This document shows, piece after piece, positions 3,083-12,661 of a stretch of 64,000 nucleotides of DNA (positions are counted from its first letter, which is position 1; every line of letters begins with the position of its first letter). Both the position numbers and the translations under genes were made by a program. Source of the DNA: Desulfobulbaceae bacterium (GTDB lineage: Bacteria; Bacteroidota; Ignavibacteria; Kapaibacteriales; UBA2268). The notes below the pieces were generated by a model. That model worked only from the letters and a program-made list of their open reading frames with translations. It made no database searches and had not been told where the DNA came from. Location: NCBI GenBank assembly GCA_018335795.1, contig JAGXRP010000032.1, positions 1 to 64,000 on the forward strand. Direction: 5' to 3'.

Positions 3083-3114
3083 GGAGATGAATAAACATTC
3101 ATCTCCATTTTTTT
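3083..3114 (+). terminator. Bidirectional intrinsic terminator
   Basis: GGAGATGAAT (3083-3092) pairs with ATTCATCTCC (3097-3106) around a four-base loop and is followed by a run of seven T. On the minus strand it is followed by six T, so it can serve both the metzincin gene and the convergent gatE-gatD operon. Confidence 0.85.
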
Positions 3115-3140: not shown

Positions 3141-4532
3141 CTATTTCCTAAACTTCGAGATAAATTCTTCAACTTCGGGGATGCCGCCTTGATAGACAAG
3201 ATAGCCGTTTGAAGGCTCTCTGTCGGTGGTTTCGCCGTTGATTGGGTCTAACATAATTTCTTTTACTTTTTCCAAATCCGAAGTCTGCCCCAAAGCCCAA
3301 CAAAGTTTCATGTAGGCAACTTCGGGAAGCATGTTTGCAGTAGGTACAACACCGAGGTCCATCATCTCACGACCTGTCTCGTAAACGTACATTTGGACAT
3401 AGCCCCAAAGCGTTTGAACGGTCATGTAAACTGCGACACCTTTATCTTTCGCTCTTTTCAGCGCAGGATAAAGCGGCTTGTTGACGTGACCAAGCCCGGT
3501 TCCGGCAATCACAATGCCCTTATATCCCGAATCAATCATCGAATCAATCATATCGGGCATCATATTGGGATAATAATAGACCATCCCTACTCTTTCTTCA
3601 AAATATGGAGCCAATATGAAATTATTGTCAGTTCTGCGGCGCTTGTAATCTTGTCTGAGCGGAGATATTTTATTCCTATCAATCATTGCCAAGGGAATAT
3701 CGCCAATTGTGCGGAATGTTGAGCGATAGGATGAGTGCATTTTACGTACTCGAGTTCCGCGATGCAATAATCCGTAGGAATCTGACGTAGGTCCGAACAT
3801 ACAAACCATAACTTCGGCAATATCGCTTTCTCCGGCTGCTTTGACGGCATGAATCAAATTCAATGCCGCATCGGATGAGGGTCTGTCTGATGAACGTTGC
3901 GAACCAACCATGACGATGGGCACAGGTGAATTTTGAATCATGAATGATAGAATAGCTGCAGTGTGGTGCATTGTATCAGTACCATGACCGATTACGATGC
4001 CTTTGACGCCCTTTTCAATTTCTTTGGCGATTGCATTTGCAGTGCCAATCCATTGTTCGGGACCCATATTTTCGGAAAATACGCCGTAAAGTTTTTCAGT
4101 TTCTAAGTTGCAATAGTCAGCTAATTCAGGGACAGAACCGTAAAGTTCGCCCGGTGAAAATGCCGGAATAACAGCCCCTGTGCGATAATCCAAACGACTT
4201 GCGATTGTACCGCCGGTCCCAAAAAGTTTGACGCGTGGTTTGCCTTTGTCATATGGGAATGCCTTTTCAGGGATTTTGTAATTTGCAACTTTGCGACCTT
4301 TGATTACAATTGAGGAAATCTTATCGGCTCTGATACCAATATTATAACCTGTTGCCATTTTCAAAACTAAGTGCAATTTATCTGCGGTTTCGGAGCGTGG
4401 CAAAATTATACCCGAATATTTTGAGCCTTCGGAGGTTTCGACATCAATGTCGCTCCAAACGAAAGCACCCCATTTCTTCATTACATCGAGCGTAATGCTG
4501 CTGTATCCTTTGAATAATTCCTTATCTTCCAT
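3141..4532 (-). CDS. gatD: Glutamyl-tRNA(Gln) amidotransferase subunit D
   Basis: This 463-residue protein is the glutaminase subunit of the GatDE complex, releasing ammonia from glutamine (or asparagine) for conversion of Glu-tRNA(Gln) to Gln-tRNA(Gln). An N-terminal GatD-specific domain (about 1-85) precedes a type I asparaginase-like domain. The catalytic motifs are FGTGGTI at 104-110 (Thr) and GHGTDTM at 182-188 (Thr-Asp), followed by 'GSQRSSDRPSSDA'. Plain bacterial asparaginases are about 330 residues and lack the N-terminal domain. The start overlaps the end of gatE by 11 bases, a tight translational coupling. GatDE is regarded as archaeal, so its presence here is notable. I am confident in the identity because gatE is its immediate partner. 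Confidence 0.93.
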   Translation of the reverse strand: MEDKELFKGYSSITLDVMKKWGAFVWSDIDVETSEGSKYSGIILPRSETADKLHLVLKMATGYNIGIRADKISSIVIKGRKVANYKIPEKAFPYDKGKPRVKLFGTGGTIASRLDYRTGAVIPAFSPGELYGSVPELADYCNLETEKLYGVFSENMGPEQWIGTANAIAKEIEKGVKGIVIGHGTDTMHHTAAILSFMIQNSPVPIVMVGSQRSSDRPSSDAALNLIHAVKAAGESDIAEVMVCMFGPTSDSYGLLHRGTRVRKMHSSYRSTFRTIGDIPLAMIDRNKISPLRQDYKRRRTDNNFILAPYFEERVGMVYYYPNMMPDMIDSMIDSGYKGIVIAGTGLGHVNKPLYPALKRAKDKGVAVYMTVQTLWGYVQMYVYETGREMMDLGVVPTANMLPEVAYMKLCWALGQTSDLEKVKEIMLDPINGETTDREPSNGYLVYQGGIPEVEEFISKFRK

Positions 4533-6459
4533 TACTCATCTCCGAATTTAATTTACTTGAAACCATTTTGCTAACCATTTTTCCGTCCACTCTGCCTCTT
4601 AAGTCGTCCATTATTATTCCCATCACGATTTCGTATTTTTTCTCTGGGTTGATTAATGTTATATGATTGATTTGCTTCATTGCCATACCAACGCGAATAT
4701 TAATTTCTTCGTCAGTGCATGGGCTCGGCAATTTAGATTCATCAATTTCACCGTTGCGCAAAAACATATCTAAAGCTATCAATACAGCATCTTTTAAAAT
4801 TTTTCCTGATGAATATAATTTGAATACTCTTTCAAACTCATCGTGAGTTAATTTTTCAATAGGAAGTCCACGCTTGCGCAATCTCTTAGGATATTGGATA
4901 ATAGCAGTAGCTACAAAAACCGGGTCTATATTGAAAGGTTCTGCAACTAACATCTCAAATGAAGATGCAAATCTTGATATAGCAAGCTCCTCAATCAAGT
5001 CATCAGGAACACCTAGCTTTGTATATTTTTGAGTACGAATCCAAATTTGCTCGGGAGCTCTTGAACGAATAAGTTTCTTTCTTTCATCGGTAATTGGCTT
5101 TGGTGGCAAATCGGTATCCGGATACATTCTTTCGGGTCCGGGCAGAATCCTTTCAAAACCATTTGTTCCGTCGGGATATGCTTGACGCGTTTCAGAAGGT
5201 ATGCCAATTGTAGCTTCGCGTGCACGAATGATAATTTCGTTTGCACCCATTAGTGCATCAGCGTCATCGCCCCAAACTAAAATTAGAGCATCATCAGCAG
5301 TTACATTCATAAATTTCTTGAGTGACACCCATTCAGCCGAAGCGAGTGTTTCGCTTATATTATCGGAATGGATAATATTTGGCAATGTAGTCAGACAAGC
5401 AATTACGCGGACTCTATCAGAAATTTCTTTAGAGAAATAAGTATCAGTTTGAGTTTGCCATTTGAGATAGCCGGCAAATCCGTCAAGTTTGACACAATTA
5501 ACCTTGAAACCATTTTGAATAGCATCGGCAATAGGTTTGAAGTGAGTTTTCTTGATAATTTTAGTAACATCTTCGAAATTCGCTTTGAAAGTTTCCGGTG
5601 TGATTCCCTTATTTGCAAGAGATTCCCTCATTCTGAGCAAATTCCATTGTCTCATGGCTTCGTTGTATGTCAGAAGAGGAATTCGTTTGATGCTCGGGAC
5701 ACCTTTGATTTCTACACGTGTGCCACCTGTAACGCTGACGTTAACGTCTTCGCGTCCGGCACCAACACCTGTACGAACTCTACCTGTAGAACGGACTAAT
5801 CTCCGGAGAATTTGATTTACTTCAGCCACTTCTTGAGGTGTTTTCATCTCAGGATACGTTACAGTTTCAATCAACGGCATACCCAATCTATCTGTCAAAT
5901 ACACTCTTCTATGCCCAACGTCACTTGTTTCACGGCACGAATCTTCTTCGATTGACATTTGGATTATATTGATATACCTATCTTTATATGGTATCCTACC
6001 GCCTACACTTGTAATTGCAGTACGTTGAAATCCTGTCGGGATACTTCCGTCCAAGTATTGCTTGCGTGCAATGTGGAGTTCGTCCACAATGTAGGCATCG
6101 AGCAACATACCAACTTCAATCGCAATATCAAGTGCTTGCTCGTTGATTTGGAACGGCGGCGTGTCGTCCATTTCGTAGGTACACACTGTATCATAATGGA
6201 TACGATATATAATATCCTTTTTGGTTTTAAATTCCATCAATGCAGTGCCGTCATACTCGCCAAGCTCCGACAAAGTCGGACGCATGTGTCTGAGAATTTC
6301 AGCATTGTATGATTTTTGATATTTGCCAGCCGGACAACGGCAAAACAATTTTTGGTCTGTAAGCAACTGTTGATGCACTTCGAGCCCGGACATGAAACCT
6401 ACGCGAGCATAGTCTTCGGGGGTCATCTCATCAAAGGGTTTGAATTCAAAATCGTACAT
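4522..6459 (-). CDS. gatE: Glutamyl-tRNA(Gln) amidotransferase subunit E
   Basis: GatE is the kinase/transamidase and tRNA-binding subunit that phosphorylates Glu-tRNA(Gln) and amidates it with ammonia from GatD. The GatB-type catalytic core begins with 'GLEVHQQL' and the cysteine pair in 'LFCRCPAGK'. The central 'ILPGPERMYPDTDLPP' segment (about residue 440) is a GatE hallmark, and the length (about 645) fits GatE (about 620-650) rather than GatB (about 480), because GatE carries an inserted AspRS-like domain. A YqeY-like helical tail ends the protein. I prefer ATG 6459, preceded by GAGGGTGAT, over the in-frame ATG at 6477 that has no ribosome site. It is the first gene of the gatE-gatD operon. 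Confidence 0.93.
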   Translation of the reverse strand: MYDFEFKPFDEMTPEDYARVGFMSGLEVHQQLLTDQKLFCRCPAGKYQKSYNAEILRHMRPTLSELGEYDGTALMEFKTKKDIIYRIHYDTVCTYEMDDTPPFQINEQALDIAIEVGMLLDAYIVDELHIARKQYLDGSIPTGFQRTAITSVGGRIPYKDRYINIIQMSIEEDSCRETSDVGHRRVYLTDRLGMPLIETVTYPEMKTPQEVAEVNQILRRLVRSTGRVRTGVGAGREDVNVSVTGGTRVEIKGVPSIKRIPLLTYNEAMRQWNLLRMRESLANKGITPETFKANFEDVTKIIKKTHFKPIADAIQNGFKVNCVKLDGFAGYLKWQTQTDTYFSKEISDRVRVIACLTTLPNIIHSDNISETLASAEWVSLKKFMNVTADDALILVWGDDADALMGANEIIIRAREATIGIPSETRQAYPDGTNGFERILPGPERMYPDTDLPPKPITDERKKLIRSRAPEQIWIRTQKYTKLGVPDDLIEELAISRFASSFEMLVAEPFNIDPVFVATAIIQYPKRLRKRGLPIEKLTHDEFERVFKLYSSGKILKDAVLIALDMFLRNGEIDESKLPSPCTDEEINIRVGMAMKQINHITLINPEKKYEIVMGIIMDDLRGRVDGKMVSKMVSSKLNSEMSNGR

Positions 6460-6781
6460 ATCACCCTCGTTATTCATATAGTCATTATAAATATATAAGT
6501 GTCAAAATATAGAAAAGCAAAATTACGAAATTTTCAGCAAATTTATGACATTTTTGTCATTTTCATTTGAAATTAGATCTTTAATGTTATAATTTCATAG
6601 TTTATCCTTGATTAATTTTGTTTTTATTGTTATCTAATTATCATTATTTAACATATTTTAGACCATTTTTGTGATTATTATAATTTTTTCCTTGCGTAGT
6701 TAAATTTTAATCATTATGTTTACATGAACGATAAGGAATATTATAAAAAAAGTTCTTATAAATTTGAAAAAGGTGTAGGAT
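6460..6781. other. AT-rich divergent intergenic region
   Basis: About 320 bases separate gatE (minus) from the cytochrome gene (plus). The sequence is strongly AT-rich and contains no coding frame I would accept. It must hold promoters for both units. The best candidate for the cytochrome gene is given separately. On the gatE side there is a TAATTTTG box (6525 to 6518, minus strand) without a well-placed upstream element. Confidence 0.5.
6759..6766 (+). promoter_or_regulatory. Putative -7 promoter box TAAATTTG
   Basis: It matches the Bacteroidota-type TAnnTTTG element 15 bases before the cytochrome start codon and just upstream of its AAGG-like ribosome site. No clear TTG is seen about 19 bases upstream, so confidence is limited. 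Confidence 0.35.
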
Positions 6782-8131
6782 ATGAACAAAATCCATCTCT
6801 TTATTATTGCATTAGCATCTGTATCTTTGTTTATCTTTAGTTGTTCTGATGATAGTCCGTCAGACAACAACAACAACAACGAAAGTGTAGCATCATGCGA
6901 AGGATGCCACACAAATTACGCTCATCTCAAAGCTGTAGCCAAACCATACGAAGACCCGGGTGGTGGCGGATGCGGTGGCGATGTGCCACACGTCGAAATC
7001 TATGATGCAGTTTATCTCGGTGGTTCGGGTTTTGAAGAATACAAAAAATCAGAGCATTACAAGCTTGATTGTATTGCATGTCACAATGGAGTTGACAAGA
7101 CAGACGACAAAGCTGTCGCCCACAGCGGTAATTTTATAGCAAAACCATCTCAACATGCCGAAGAAAAATGCGCCACATGCCATGCCGATATCGTTGCTTC
7201 TACTAAAAATAGTTTGCACGAACAAGGATGGGGACAAAAACGCAAAGTAACAATGCGTTCAGGATTGAGCGGACCGCAAGAATTCACAAAATTATCATTT
7301 GATATGCAACAAGGTTATGGTAAAAATTGTGCTACTTGCCATGCAACGTGCGGTGATTGTCACGTCAATCGTCCACACGCTTCAGGTGGTGGATTGTTGA
7401 ACGGTCACAATTTCAGCAAAGAACCTGATATGCTCAATACATGTATTGCTTGCCATAAAACTCGCGGCGGTCACGCTTTCTTGGGTGTAGCTCCGGGCAC
7501 AAAGCCTGACGTACATCAAACCAAAGGAATGACATGCACAAGTTGCCACAGCCAACAAGAAATTCATGGCGACGGCACAATCGTCGAACATCGCTATGCA
7601 TATTCACAACTACCGGAATGTACAGATTGCCACACAGGAATTCAAAACAAGAATATGTACCATACTTTGCATTGGGATACATTCAATTGCCAAAGCTGCC
7701 ATTCGCAAAAATATAATAGCTGTGGAAGCTGCCACGTCGGCGGCGAAGGAGTGCGAATCACTTCATATCAAGATTTCAAAATTGCAATGAATCCTATTCC
7801 CGGCACAAAACCTTACAAATTTGCACTCGTAAGAAGAACACCCGGGGCACCTGATACATTCGAGAAATTCGGTACACCGAACTATTCGAACTTCGAAGCA
7901 TTTCCGACATACAATTACACAACTCCTCACAACATTTTGCGTTGGACTGAAGTCACACAAGTAGCTTCGGGCAAACATTGTGGCGATAATTGCCATATAG
8001 TAAAAGAAAATGGCAAATTCCGCAACAAAAAACTATACCTTTTCGAGGAAGACTTATTAAATTGGGAAGTAAAGGCAACTAAACCCATTACCGTTGACGG
8101 CAAATTGCCTGCAAAATGGGAAGTTCAATAA
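6782..8131 (+). CDS. Decahaem c-type cytochrome lipoprotein
   Basis: The 449-residue product starts with a lipoprotein signal whose lipobox ends at Cys21 ('FIFSCSDD'), so it should sit in a membrane facing the periplasm or the cell surface. Ten CxxCH haem sites are visible, with first cysteines near 39, 97, 130, 183, 190, 221, 252, 280, 303 and 314. A further 'CGDNCH' near 402 is a CxxxCH variant. Histidines are plentiful, as needed for axial ligands. The protein probably carries electrons in respiration or extracellular transfer; I cannot assign it to a named family. It is followed by a double-rhodanese lipoprotein in the same direction, 45 bases on, and the two probably act together. Confidence 0.88.
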   Translation: MNKIHLFIIALASVSLFIFSCSDDSPSDNNNNNESVASCEGCHTNYAHLKAVAKPYEDPGGGGCGGDVPHVEIYDAVYLGGSGFEEYKKSEHYKLDCIACHNGVDKTDDKAVAHSGNFIAKPSQHAEEKCATCHADIVASTKNSLHEQGWGQKRKVTMRSGLSGPQEFTKLSFDMQQGYGKNCATCHATCGDCHVNRPHASGGGLLNGHNFSKEPDMLNTCIACHKTRGGHAFLGVAPGTKPDVHQTKGMTCTSCHSQQEIHGDGTIVEHRYAYSQLPECTDCHTGIQNKNMYHTLHWDTFNCQSCHSQKYNSCGSCHVGGEGVRITSYQDFKIAMNPIPGTKPYKFALVRRTPGAPDTFEKFGTPNYSNFEAFPTYNYTTPHNILRWTEVTQVASGKHCGDNCHIVKENGKFRNKKLYLFEEDLLNWEVKATKPITVDGKLPAKWEVQ

Positions 8132-8176
8132 TATCATATAATTATCTTTTTTTAAAAATTACAAGGAGTAACAACC

Positions 8177-9160
8177 ATGTTGAACAGATTTTCAAAATTC
8201 TTTGCTATTTTATTAGCAATCGTATTCATCGCTTCATGTTCCGATGATGAAACAACAACACCGACTATTAACGAAGGCGACCTTCTGATTAAATATTTAG
8301 AAGCAAATGGCGACTACGTTAATACATACTTGCCTGCGTTAATTACAGCATCTGATTTGCACACACTCAACCAAACAGGTAAAGCATATATCATTGACTT
8401 ACGTGCTGATACAGACTTCGCAACCGGACACATCAAGAACGCTGTGAATGTAAAATTGGCTGACCTACTTACTCATATCAAAACTGTTGATATGACAAAA
8501 TACGACAAAGTAGCATTAGTATGCTATACAGGTCAAACAGCAGGCTTTGCAACTTCATTGATGAGATTTTTGGGTTATGATAAAGTATTCGACCTAAAAT
8601 TTGGAATGTGTTCATGGCACAATGACTTCGCCGGAAAATGGAAAGGTGCAATTAGCAATTCATATGCTTCACAATTCGTGAATACACCAAGCCCGGCAAA
8701 ACCTGCAAAAGGCAAATTGCCAGAGCTTAAGACTGGGAAAACCACAGGTAAAGAAATCTTAGAAGCACGCGTTGACGCATTGCTCAAAGAAGGTTTTGGA
8801 GCTGCGGGTATCAATGCTCAAGCCACTTTCCAAGATTTGAGCAAATATTACATAGCAAACTATTGGACAGAAGCACAATATCTCGACCCGGGTCACATCC
8901 CAGGAGCAATCCAATACACTCCGAAAGAAAGCTTGAAATATTCGGTGGATTTGACTACTTTGCCAACTGATAAGCCAATCATTATCTATTGCCATACTGG
9001 AACACAAAGCTCGATGCTTGCTGCATTCCTCAGACTTATGGGCTACGATGCAAAATCATTACTCTTTGGTGCTAATTCCATGATTTATGACAAAATGGTT
9101 GAAAAGAAACTCAGCATCTGGAAAGACGCAGAAATCATTGGTTTAGAATACGAAAAATAA
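8177..9160 (+). CDS. Double rhodanese-domain lipoprotein
   Basis: The 327-residue protein has a lipobox ending at Cys21 ('FIASCSDD') and two rhodanese-like domains. The first (about 55-155) has the loop 'CYTGQTAG' with Cys116; the second (about 215-320) has 'CHTGTQSS' with Cys272. Rhodaneses carry sulfur as a persulfide on this cysteine, and both copies keep it. Placement outside the cytoplasm beside a multihaem cytochrome suggests periplasmic sulfur transfer or a role in a cytochrome complex, as for rhodanese-like proteins in porin-cytochrome clusters of metal reducers (inference). An AAGGAG ribosome site precedes the ATG. A strong terminator follows the gene. Confidence 0.88.
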   Translation: MLNRFSKFFAILLAIVFIASCSDDETTTPTINEGDLLIKYLEANGDYVNTYLPALITASDLHTLNQTGKAYIIDLRADTDFATGHIKNAVNVKLADLLTHIKTVDMTKYDKVALVCYTGQTAGFATSLMRFLGYDKVFDLKFGMCSWHNDFAGKWKGAISNSYASQFVNTPSPAKPAKGKLPELKTGKTTGKEILEARVDALLKEGFGAAGINAQATFQDLSKYYIANYWTEAQYLDPGHIPGAIQYTPKESLKYSVDLTTLPTDKPIIIYCHTGTQSSMLAAFLRLMGYDAKSLLFGANSMIYDKMVEKKLSIWKDAEIIGLEYEK

Positions 9161-9179: not shown

Positions 9180-9219
9180 AAGCTATCCGATTCGCAAGAG
9201 TCGGATAGCTTTTTTTTTT
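9180..9219 (+). terminator. Intrinsic terminator of the cytochrome-rhodanese unit
   Basis: AAGCTATCCGA (9180-9190) pairs with TCGGATAGCTT (9201-9211) around a 10-base loop, followed by an unbroken T-run to 9219. The T-run overlaps the stop codon of the convergent restriction-modification gene. Confidence 0.93.
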
Positions 9220-12200
9220 AAACCCAAATATCAAACGAAGCTTTGATGAAATCGTCCATTTCGGCTTTTGTTTCACTGCCATCACCATAAGTGAAAGTTG
9301 ATGTTATATGCTTCCACTCATCTTTAGTCAATCCGTATAAATCGCGAGCAATTAGTACTTCAATTTCTGCACGAAGTAATGTTGGGTCTTCACTTTCGTG
9401 AATCAATATGCCAAGCTCCTCTCTCAGTTCTTCAAATTCCAATCTACCGCTTGACAAATATAATATCTTGAAAGCAAGATCGGACAAACGTTTCTTAACA
9501 CTATCCCCAGCTTCTGCAATTGGCATCTCATAAATAAAATTCATTGTTAAATTAGCAGATATTTTGTTTCGAATATAATAATTCAATGTTATCGAATTAA
9601 AGAGAGCCATGATATAAAACAATTCATTGATTGGCATAATATTAGGAATAATTATATTCCCTGATAAATCATAATCCATATTAACAATATGATTCATTGA
9701 ATGTCCAATAAACACATTCTTAGGAATAATTGAGCAAATCAAAGTACGTTCGTTTGTAGAACTTCCAATAGCCCGATAAGCCAGCCTGTATGTTTGATAG
9801 TCAAGTTTGAAATTTTCACCATAATCAAGTGCGTCAATCTCTTGTGCAGAAAGTTTATTTTCAGATTTAATCCGATGAAGCACTTTACGCAAAAGTATAT
9901 CGCAAGCGGCTTCTTCGTCAATAAAATATCGAGGGATAGAATAATTTGCGTTGTATTGATGAATCATTTTTCCCTCGTATAGCCGCAGAAATCTCCTGCC
10001 CTTGAAAATTTTCAAATCCTCCAAAGAGTTGAATAAATTACTGTCATTTGTCATATCAAATTCGCGTCGTAATTTGATATTAAAATGCGACAATTTTTTG
10101 TGGTCACTCAAAATCTTGCTACAAATTTCATAATCCTTATCGGATTTGAATTCCATTATGGATATATTAGTCGGAGAGAATTGTTTGATTTTCTCTATAT
10201 CGTAGTATATAAAATCGTCATTATATAAATCATTCGGGTTATGTAAATAAAATTTTGCTTTGAATTTGTAATCAATTCCGTTGATAATCTCTTTTTTGGC
10301 ATAAACCACAGAAAATTTGAATCTGCTATCTACTTCAGGAAATAATCTAACTTTGGAATCTTTATTTGATTCATTATACCCTCTATTTTCAAAAGAAGAT
10401 AACTCAATCAACCTATAATCCTCTATTAACATTTTCCTGAGCATATTTGCACCTTCGTCAGTTTGGAAGCCTGAAGGCACAAGCAAGCAGTACAAAGCAT
10501 CATCCTTGATAATTTGGAAATCTCTTTCCATAAAGAATTTGTAAAAATTCGGGTCGCCGGAACTTTGGTGAGAGTATTTTGAATAAAGGTATTGAGTGTA
10601 TTTCTTGTAATTTTCTGTATATGAATTCCATTTTGCTTTAAATTCATCGTTAGTATTGATTTGCAAATCAAACCATTTGTTAAATTTAAGGACATCCATT
10701 TCAAATTTGCCTTGTTTCGCAAACTCCTTTTTCACTGGTTTAATAGCTTCCCAAGGCGGATTGCTGATAATTCCGTCAAAACCGCGTTGAGCCTTTGGTA
10801 ATGGATTGCCATGCTTATCAAAAAAGCAGAAGAAATATTCCAGCGGAAAAAATAATGCATCGGCGAATTCGGATTCCTCTTTCAATTTATTACGGATATT
10901 ATCTTTAATACTATTAACATTTTCCAGCAATGCAGGATTGAAAATATCATATAAATAACTGTTTCGGATAAGATGCAATTCAATAATTTCGGCTTTGAAA
11001 TTCTCAGTTATTATACTAATCTGCAAATCAAAATCTATATCGGATAAAGAATCTCCTTTTATGAAATTCATTCCCAAATTTGGTAAAATATGTTCTTTTT
11101 CTTCCGGTAAATATCTGAAATTATAGATTTGCGGATTGAGTTTAACGGCTTCCTTCCAAATATTTGTTTTTGCAGTATCAATCGCTCTTTCATCTTTATC
11201 AGCACCAAAAATGTGTCTGACTATAATCTTGGAAATCAGAAAAAGTTCATTACCGGTTATAAAATCCATATCCTTACGGAACTGGTCAACAATTCTAACA
11301 TTTATAGGCGTATTCGCCAGAGTTTTGCTTTCGAATTGACTTGCCCATTCAGTAGATTCTTTCAGCCGCTCATAATGAGTATATATTCTCCTTAATACCT
11401 TTATCAAAAAGCTTCCACTACCCGATGTGCTGTCAATAATTTTTATTGAAGCGATTTTATCAGTCAACGAGTGAACAAGATTTTCATCTAAGTTGCTTTT
11501 TTTCAATTCAGCAATCAGTTCATTTACAGGTTGCTCAAAAAGTGAATCTACAATCAAATCAGCCATATAGACAGTAATTGAAGCAGGGGTATAATAAATT
11601 CCTTCATCTTTTCGGTTTTCAGCTATCCATGTTTCATAAGCTTTACCGAAAATGTCTTCGTTAATTTTTCTATAATTATAATGAACCAAACCTTTACCAA
11701 AAGTGCTTGACCATTTATCTAATCCAAGTATTAGTTCGAATACTCTTCGGAAAGTGGTTAAGTTAGATTTGTTTTTGTCAACATAATCCCAAAAATAATG
11801 GTCGAAAAGTTCGGTATTATAGAAATCTTGAAAAAATTTCTCAATAACATTGAAAAAATTAGAAAATACTTGTTGATTCCCTTTTACCCCCCATCTGTAA
11901 TCTACTTTTTCAAATTCATCTTGAATAAAGCGATAGGGAATTAAACCGTAATCCTCGAGAGTTTTAATAAAAATGAATTTATTCAGGAAAAGCACAACAA
12001 CTTCTTCATGAGAAAAATTTGCATTACTTATCATCTTGACATAACTAAATTCTGAGTACCATTTTTTCAAATCATTAAAAAATGCCGTGTCCAAATCATG
12101 CGTATATTCATCATCTTCCCGTCGCCGAAGGACATCCCACATATTCCCGGTATTAATGTAATCATCAATCAAATCAACAAAAGTAGTACTTGAAAAAGGT

Positions 12201-12661
12201 TCGAATTTGATTAGAGAATTACGATTGAAAATATAAACATGCTCGACATTTGTTAAAATCACATATTCAACATTACGTTTGCTGAGGTAATTTTTAATCT
12301 GATTTTCATGTTTTCTGTAATTGAAATCAAATCGAGTTAGAGCATTTTTGGAATCTTTATAAGAAAAAAGCGGTTTAAGTTCGATACATATAGGATTCCC
12401 TGTACCTCTATCATGCAAAATGAAATCAATAAATCGCCCTTCGATATTGACTTCCGGTTTAACTTCACCTTCAAAAATATTTTTCATGAATTCGTAAAAC
12501 AGCTGTCCTGTTGCAGTTTCCGATTTTACTTTACTTCTTAGGGACGCAATATAATCATTGATTGGTTCGAAGTCAAATTTAACCGAACTTACAGTGTCAT
12601 AAGGAATAATTTCCTGTTTGAAAAAGTCGCTAATTGATTTTAAAATTTCTTGTTTTGTCAT
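9218..12661 (-). CDS. Type IIG-like restriction endonuclease / N6-adenine DNA methyltransferase
   Basis: A single 1147-residue chain appears to combine cleavage and methylation. The N-terminus has a PD-(D/E)xK-like nuclease pattern: D79 in 'GRFIDFILHD', then E94 and K96 in 'ICIELKPL'. The methyltransferase domain has an AdoMet motif I reading 'DSTSGSGSF' (about 408-416) where D-P-A-C-G-S-G is usual, and the catalytic motif NPPW near 634, typical of gamma-class N6-adenine enzymes. The C-terminal third, with 'RFLRLYEGKMIHQY' near 900, resembles the target-recognition part of Eco57I-class enzymes. No separate specificity or restriction gene lies nearby, which fits type IIG. It could also be a BREX- or DISARM-like methylase, but the nuclease motif argues against that. 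The target site is unknown. Confidence 0.82.
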   Translation of the reverse strand: MTKQEILKSISDFFKQEIIPYDTVSSVKFDFEPINDYIASLRSKVKSETATGQLFYEFMKNIFEGEVKPEVNIEGRFIDFILHDRGTGNPICIELKPLFSYKDSKNALTRFDFNYRKHENQIKNYLSKRNVEYVILTNVEHVYIFNRNSLIKFEPFSSTTFVDLIDDYINTGNMWDVLRRREDDEYTHDLDTAFFNDLKKWYSEFSYVKMISNANFSHEEVVVLFLNKFIFIKTLEDYGLIPYRFIQDEFEKVDYRWGVKGNQQVFSNFFNVIEKFFQDFYNTELFDHYFWDYVDKNKSNLTTFRRVFELILGLDKWSSTFGKGLVHYNYRKINEDIFGKAYETWIAENRKDEGIYYTPASITVYMADLIVDSLFEQPVNELIAELKKSNLDENLVHSLTDKIASIKIIDSTSGSGSFLIKVLRRIYTHYERLKESTEWASQFESKTLANTPINVRIVDQFRKDMDFITGNELFLISKIIVRHIFGADKDERAIDTAKTNIWKEAVKLNPQIYNFRYLPEEKEHILPNLGMNFIKGDSLSDIDFDLQISIITENFKAEIIELHLIRNSYLYDIFNPALLENVNSIKDNIRNKLKEESEFADALFFPLEYFFCFFDKHGNPLPKAQRGFDGIISNPPWEAIKPVKKEFAKQGKFEMDVLKFNKWFDLQINTNDEFKAKWNSYTENYKKYTQYLYSKYSHQSSGDPNFYKFFMERDFQIIKDDALYCLLVPSGFQTDEGANMLRKMLIEDYRLIELSSFENRGYNESNKDSKVRLFPEVDSRFKFSVVYAKKEIINGIDYKFKAKFYLHNPNDLYNDDFIYYDIEKIKQFSPTNISIMEFKSDKDYEICSKILSDHKKLSHFNIKLRREFDMTNDSNLFNSLEDLKIFKGRRFLRLYEGKMIHQYNANYSIPRYFIDEEAACDILLRKVLHRIKSENKLSAQEIDALDYGENFKLDYQTYRLAYRAIGSSTNERTLICSIIPKNVFIGHSMNHIVNMDYDLSGNIIIPNIMPINELFYIMALFNSITLNYYIRNKISANLTMNFIYEMPIAEAGDSVKKRLSDLAFKILYLSSGRLEFEELREELGILIHESEDPTLLRAEIEVLIARDLYGLTKDEWKHITSTFTYGDGSETKAEMDDFIKASFDIWV

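Follow-up and report, generated by a model that had tools for sequence, protein, structure and literature searches.

The described systems closest to the locus considered here are the archaeal GatDE amidotransferase, the bacterial GatCAB amidotransferase and the type I asparaginases. In GatDE, the GatD subunit liberates ammonia from glutamine or asparagine. The GatE subunit phosphorylates the Glu side chain on mischarged tRNA(Gln) and then amidates the Glu to Gln. A gatE-gatD pair is present in a stretch of 64,000 nucleotides, referred to below as the window, which covers positions 1 to 64,000 (forward strand) of contig JAGXRP010000032.1. The contig belongs to assembly GCA_018335795.1, named Desulfobulbaceae bacterium and placed in the GTDB lineage Bacteroidota, Ignavibacteria, Kapaibacteriales, UBA2268.

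The original prediction for this DNA noted that GatDE is generally described as archaeal, and the reviews say so. In the portions of them available, GatDE is stated to be exclusively archaeal (PMC8762117, PMC9499178, PMC8007984), and GlnRS is said to be absent from all archaea (PMC9499178). Two of these reviews tie the archaeal lack of GlnRS to the co-evolution of GatDE with the tRNA-Gln of archaea, and their discussion of the last common ancestor starts from GatDE as an archaeal signature (PMC9499178, PMC8762117). GatDE goes unmentioned in the part examined of a survey that sorted 366 bacterial genomes by their GluRS, GlnRS and GatCAB (PMC3927822). No description of a bacterial GatDE was recognised in the open-access literature, subscription papers and most preprints being outside that scope. 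The bacterial pair of the window contradicts the reviews.

The gatE-gatD pair of the window

Both genes lie on the minus strand, in the order gatE then gatD. The gatE frame (4522..6477) encodes the Glu-tRNA(Gln) amidotransferase subunit E, of 651 residues counted from the first ATG. The start is probably at 6459, six codons downstream (645 residues), since the first Met of most aligned relatives falls there. The gatD frame (3141..4532, 463 residues) encodes a glutaminase/asparaginase-type subunit D with a GatD_N domain. As predicted, both open reading frames are complete and, from their coordinates, overlap by 11 bases (4522..4532). The translations also contain the 'ILPGPERMYPDTD' hallmark expected of GatE and both asparaginase motifs of GatD. 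The N-terminal domain claimed for GatD was recovered as Pfam GatD_N (PF18195, 48.3 against a cut-off of 25.7), which is accompanied by Asparaginase and Asparaginase_C.

The equivalog models for GatE were passed (NF003107, 533.8 bits, cut-off 456; TIGR00134, 465.2, cut-off 319.55), and the protein remained below every gatB cut-off listed, with 146.9 against 338 for the best gatB model. Its Pfam domains, both over cut-off, are GatB_N (PF02934) and GatB_Yqey (PF02637). GatD passed the models of its own family (TIGR02153, 511.7, cut-off 324; NF003217, 507.8, cut-off 310). Because it belongs to the asparaginase superfamily, it also passed TIGR00519, the model of the type I subfamily (388.9 against 260.5), but not the type II models.

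The top solved relatives of both subunits are 1zq1 from Pyrococcus abyssi and 2d6f from Methanothermobacter thermautotrophicus. GatE residues 22-648 align to 1zq1_C, with the catalytic domain, the middle insertion and the YqeY-like tail all there. A predicted model of GatE, mediocre in quality and used for a fold search only (predicted local distance difference test 68.6, predicted template modelling score 0.57), also placed 1zq1 and 2d6f first. The window proteins share the domains of the archaeal enzymes and match them over most of both subunits, with 49% (GatD) and 35% (GatE) identity to those of P. abyssi. The host differs from the archaeal ones in having GlnRS, AsnRS and a bacterial tRNA-Gln (U1-A72, G73).

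The likeness to bacterial GatCAB is the catalytic domain common to GatE and GatB, but GatE is longer than GatB, has another partner and scores far under the gatB cut-offs. Type I asparaginases share with GatD the asparaginase domain and a T/T/D/K set of residues, whereas GatD has the extra GatD_N domain, higher scores with the GatD models and a pairing with gatE. This set (T109, T185, D186 and K264, read from the alignment) is presumably catalytic, as in the asparaginase family. It is T/T/D/K in 86/86 bacterial rows, among which some genomes count twice.

In what follows, G numbers denote genomes, G000 being that of the window, and L numbers denote loci. An alignment of 33 bacterial and two archaeal GatE rows, with the divergent G156 omitted, has 99 residue columns that both archaeal rows share with 32 or more of the bacterial ones. 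Forty of these are also found in two GatB rows. At 35 columns one residue is fixed in the bacteria, in 32 or more of the 33 rows, and the two archaeal GatE agree on a different residue. The C-terminal part of GatE is far more variable than the catalytic part. Identity between the bacterial and the two archaeal GatE is 31-38%, against 52.5% between the two archaeal proteins. Bacterial GatDE is evidently under selection, since frames and motifs are intact at that level of identity to archaeal GatE. The omitted GatE of G156 (L053 1498-3456, minus strand) is very divergent, on a long branch and 43% identical to that of the window; the GatD of this genome is 69% identical.

A grouping of the proteins with bacterial GatB and asparaginase had been named as grounds for rejecting the prediction. 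In the GatE tree, five GatB rows separate at 100/100, and GatE groups with archaeal GatE. By these comparisons, the window pair is confirmed as a true, full-length GatD-GatE in a bacterium. Bacterial GatDE is a variant of a known enzyme and no new kind; what is surprising is its bacterial spread and the company of GlnRS.

Glutamine and asparagine routes in the host and its class

G000 encodes GlnRS (789.8 bits, cut-off 425.8) in a frame of 575 residues. The enzyme is full-length, bears its motifs (HIGH and, in the manner of KMSKS, VLSKR) and looks intact. Also encoded are AsnRS (495.8), AsnB (501.9) and a single GluRS (521.4). GatB and GatA are absent from the genome. One missing contig cannot explain this double absence, because gatA and gatB are on separate contigs or distant from each other in relatives. 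The original prediction had called for a search of this kind, which thus recovered GlnRS and neither GatA nor GatB. Its suggestion that a lateral transfer replaced the bacterial route finds no support, GlnRS being present and looking intact, and GatB and GatA being absent. Its alternative, that the lineage keeps both routes, holds for GatDE beside GlnRS in G000 and not for GatDE beside GatCAB there. The absence of GlnRS described for archaeal hosts, a feature of the host and not of the protein, does not hold in G000.

The class was surveyed in 63 of its 73 genomes, the ten omitted being from the 20 of the order's other families, and GatCAB was scored from GatB over cut-off. GlnRS and GatCAB occur together in 22 genomes, and in 14 more with GatDE as well, so that on the scale of the class all systems can indeed be kept. 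GlnRS with GatDE was found in 6, GlnRS alone in 2 (G009 and G140), GatCAB alone in 17, and GatCAB with GatDE without GlnRS in 2. One of the last two, G251, has an assembly gap, with a GluRS fragment and AsnRS missing. GatDE is the sole route in 0/63. GatA, searched in 27 of the 63, is missing (6) or below the cut-off (2) in exactly the 8 GatB-less genomes. Within the family of the window, G109 has GatCAB only, G287 has GatCAB and GatDE, and G000, G160 and G196 have GlnRS and GatDE.

Associations in these 63 genomes were assessed by Fisher tests that ignore kinship. GlnRS is present in 20/22 GatDE carriers and in 24/41 non-carriers (p 0.009). GatCAB is absent from 6/22 carriers and 2/41 non-carriers (p 0.018), and all 6 of these carriers have GlnRS. 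GatCAB tracks asparagine need, since all 22 AsnB-less genomes keep GatB and all 8 GatB-less genomes have AsnB (p 0.042). GatDE does not; GatE and AsnB have no association (p 0.58). Most of the 22 AsnB-less genomes have GlnRS and AsnRS yet keep GatB, and their GatCAB may make asparagine on tRNA.

The tRNA-Gln genes judged to be G000's own, CUG on contig C24 and UUG on C20, both have U1-A72 and G73. In the available text of two papers, archaeal GatDE is described as reading A1:U72 of tRNA-Gln (PMC9499178), and U1-A72 and G73 appear in a list of identity elements for Gln in bacteria (PMC9976931). The check for GatDE identity bases that accompanied the prediction therefore returned U1-A72 and G73, not the archaeal A1-U72. 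The A1:U72 pair belongs to the archaeal substrate, not to the protein family. Its absence from G000 lowers the claim that the enzyme works exactly like the archaeal one, not the claim that it is a GatDE. A third tRNA-Gln, also U1-A72, lies on the 3-kb contig C65 and was excluded as probably foreign. This contig (L110, 3,063 bases) is A-T rich and probably foreign to the bin, and two of its frames are glycosyltransferase-like by eye.

Eleven class genomes supplied 13 tRNA-Gln genes, the C65 gene counted, and 12 of these genes have U1-A72. Most of the 13 came from a search with G000's own tRNA-Gln, which found whole genes in only some of 30 genomes, so that the sample is biased to the G000 type. 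The exception is a tRNA-Gln(UUG) of G160 (C109:13458-13529; L244 1501-1573, minus strand) with A1-U72, the archaeal pair. This genome, of the same family as G000, has GatDE and GlnRS, and GatB and GatA were not found in it. Its A1-U72 fits with relief from GatCAB, although one case proves nothing. In the GlnRS-less relative G109 (C28:7951-8021; L242 1501-1573, plus strand), the tRNA-Gln(UUG) has the discriminator A73 instead of G73.

The GluRS of G000 groups with those of the GlnRS-less G109, G287 and G043 (100/99), a grouping that also follows kinship. The GluRS of these relatives should be non-discriminating, because no GlnRS was found there. G000, whose GluRS groups with theirs, may therefore mischarge some of its tRNA(Gln). 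The column of T. thermophilus Arg358 was tried as a test of GluRS discrimination and rejected. It holds Arg in 30/31 GluRS rows, including G000 and the GlnRS-less G109, G287 and G043, and so tells nothing. The lone exception is Tyr in one of the two GluRS of the GlnRS-less G271. In the text available, a caution is given against such calls of GluRS discrimination from sequence (PMC3927822).

Distribution, descent and gene neighbourhood

When one genome was scanned for each species, at least 588 stretches encoding GatE relatives emerged. The best 80 of them are 51-69% identical (best segment) and all titled bacteria, from about eight phyla as taken from submitters' titles; the 508 weaker relatives may include archaea. 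Titles among the best 80 are Ignavibacteria, Kapabacteria, other Bacteroidetes/Chlorobi, Aminicenantes, other Acidobacteria, Latescibacterota, Phycisphaerae, other Planctomycetota, Neomarinimicrobiota, Caldithrix, KSB1, Cloacimonetes, Gemmatimonadetes and plain 'bacterium'. Latescibacterota, Cloacimonetes and Gemmatimonadetes are one record each. Chromosome records account for four of the 80 (CP054675, CP070631, CP070707 and CP070718). GatD was seen at 70 of these loci, always 3′ of GatE and on the same strand. Seven of the other ten stop at or soon past gatE, and at L211 (1.8 kb), L228 (2.7 kb) and L214 (6 kb) GatD was not seen despite sequence past gatE. A tRNA search found no tRNA-Gln in any of the 80 named loci; in a single draft genome, at L230, gatE is closely preceded by a tRNA-Glu(CUC) (5756-5832, plus strand).

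Among 296 genomes drawn evenly from the phylum, GatE was over cut-off in 22, all of them in the window's class (22/73, against 0/223 outside). The prediction would have fallen with a mis-binned contig or an archaeal genome, and G000 is in 82 contigs, scored 99.93% complete and 3.09% contaminated. However, mis-binning is unlikely as the origin of the pair, because GatDE is carried by G160, G196 and G287, three of the family's four further genomes, and by G124, G132 and G294, class members that each consist of one contig.

Beyond the class, 50 of the 80 named carriers were considered, comprising 38 not titled Bacteroidota, Ignavibacteria, Kapabacteria or Chlorobi and twelve others; their completeness is not given. 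GlnRS is over cut-off in 38/50 and GatB in 19/50. Among the 12 without GlnRS over cut-off, G315 has the enzyme in pieces that lie at the ends of contigs, and G312 has a fragment from its C-terminal part. G298, G300, G303 and G341 gave zero matches, GluRS included, and were taken as incomplete. GatB is over cut-off in G307, G336 and G344, and in two sub-cut-off pieces in G322. The last two, G316 (Neomarinimicrobiota, L216) and G319 (Calditrichaceae, L219), have GluRS-type matches and neither GlnRS nor GatB over cut-off. They are candidates for hosts in which GatDE is the only route to Gln-tRNA(Gln). The sole tRNA-Gln of G316, in 292,911 bases, is U1-A72.

In the trees, bacterial GatE stand apart from the two archaeal rows, with a very long branch between. 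The GatE of the window pairs with that of the same-family G196 (100/98), and its closest named records carry Ignavibacteria and Candidatus Kapabacteria / Kapaibacterium titles, which points to a host of Kapabacteria type within the broadly defined Bacteroidota. Planctomycetota rows form one group (support 100). A single group of 35 Bacteroidota-type rows, some titled only 'bacterium', was not rejected (p 0.154), although the best tree itself does not show them together. Rooting with GatB sets the bacteria as one side at no more than 66/30, with long branches and only two archaeal GatE rows, and two archaeal sequences are too few for rooting or dating the family. The pattern fits an old bacterial family inherited largely within phyla. 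A recent transfer of the window pair from archaea is unlikely, given how widely and with what diversity the family occurs in bacteria; an ancient one, out of archaea not represented in the sample, may have taken place.

One scan of viral contigs with the GatE alignment found no relative, and one tblastn search of plasmids matched two records, one of them archaeal. On a Natrinema thermotolerans plasmid (L231; CP031304.1, 706116-707971), a GatE-like stretch lies in two frames with no listed gene and is possibly a decayed copy.

The gatD gene directly adjoins a gene for a protein with a type IX secretion system (T9SS) sorting domain, in agreement with the bacterial surroundings described originally. 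Across phyla, no constant gatED neighbour was found in 86 loci, in which six genomes are counted twice or more. Neighbour clusters other than gatE (81) and gatD (72) reach 10 loci for the next widest, which is unannotated, and at most 6 for the rest. Between gatD and its convergent neighbour, a 10-pair stem at 3083..3106, matched by pattern, has T runs on both sides and is terminator-like; such sites in the region number 3 against 2.9 in shuffles, which is chance level. The intergenic region between gatE and a divergent cytochrome gene (6478..6781) has two promoter-like matches of 10 of 12, to the consensus only, at 6768-6740 (minus strand) and 6657-6684 (plus strand). Divergent from gatE, positions 6782-9160 (plus strand) hold a gene whose match is of the cytochrome c7 type, then a gene with two rhodanese stretches. 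Nearby, at 9218-12661 (minus strand), an Eco57I-type restriction-modification protein of 1147 residues is encoded in a stretch low in G+C (about 31-35%).

Possible role beside GlnRS

The most likely reading, at about even odds, is that bacterial GatDE is a working tRNA-dependent amidotransferase that acts as repair or back-up partner of GlnRS on Glu-tRNA(Gln), a role that we infer from the gene content and motifs observed. In G000, GlnRS would directly supply Gln-tRNA(Gln), and a GluRS descended from non-discriminating enzymes would make some Glu-tRNA(Gln). GatCAB, which would do the job of amidation in close GlnRS-less relatives, is gone, and GatDE would rescue the mischarged product. The role would be one of repair or back-up because GlnRS would already supply Gln-tRNA(Gln). 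The substrate would be the bacterial U1-A72 tRNA(Gln), so that recognition would have to be unlike the A1:U72 contact of archaea. That GatDE is retained for the supply of asparagine is disfavoured. A tentative and rather doubtful proposal is that an old bacterial GatDE subfamily reads U1-A72 tRNA(Gln) and proofreads by amidation beside GlnRS, with no hydrolysis.

Several observations weigh against a repair or back-up role. G009 and G140 have GlnRS without GatCAB or GatDE, so GlnRS alone can suffice, and 22/63 class genomes do without GatDE while having GlnRS and GatCAB. The three systems together in 14/63 are superfluous for pure repair. GatDE is also patchy, being present in 22/73 class genomes and in 0/20 of the order's other families, and the Arg358 column gives no sign of how GluRS discriminates. 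It is unlikely that GatDE and a non-discriminating GluRS are the main route to Gln-tRNA(Gln), with a GlnRS that is of minor weight, a recent gain or confined to a single isoacceptor. The placement of G000 GluRS among those of GlnRS-less relatives speaks for it, as do G316, with its U1-A72 tRNA-Gln, and G319. The GlnRS of G000 is full-length with its motifs, however, the tRNA-Gln retains U1-A72 and G73, and no class genome has GatDE as its sole route.

Redundancy with GlnRS and GatCAB, patchy presence and the much more variable C-terminal part of GatE would suit an enzyme that makes no standard Gln-tRNA and serves another acceptor or special conditions, such as nitrogen limitation, asparagine then being the donor. 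This is improbable, given that the catalytic columns of GatE are strictly conserved and that no gatED neighbour recurs across phyla, hence no pathway is indicated. That the pair is a roleless passenger, either acquired from archaea fairly recently or brought in by faulty binning, is very improbable. The 82 contigs, the 3.09% contamination, the foreign look of at least one contig (C65) and the archaeal-only description in the available review text would allow it. Carriage by the same-family, single-contig and chromosome records argues otherwise, and intact frames and motifs at 31-38% identity to the two archaeal GatE mean selection. That GatDE took over Asp-tRNA(Asn) amidation from a lost GatCAB is scarcely credible, despite the more frequent absence of GatCAB among carriers noted above. 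AsnRS and AsnB are over cut-off in all 6 GatCAB-less carriers, on which ground an Asn-tRNA role was rejected, and 0/22 AsnB-less genomes rely on GatDE instead of GatCAB.

A bacterial GatDE found mostly with GlnRS contradicts the status of the enzyme as an archaeal signature, and the coexistence of the two removes their supposed incompatibility. If an old bacterial subfamily is the true case, that status would end and presence in the last common ancestor would be reopened; the bacterial sequences are material for testing arguments about this ancestor. The series within the family, from G109 and G287 to G000, G160 and G196, allows a test of the order in which the systems were gained and lost. 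Given the usual company of GlnRS, the role of GatDE in bacteria calls for a new explanation.

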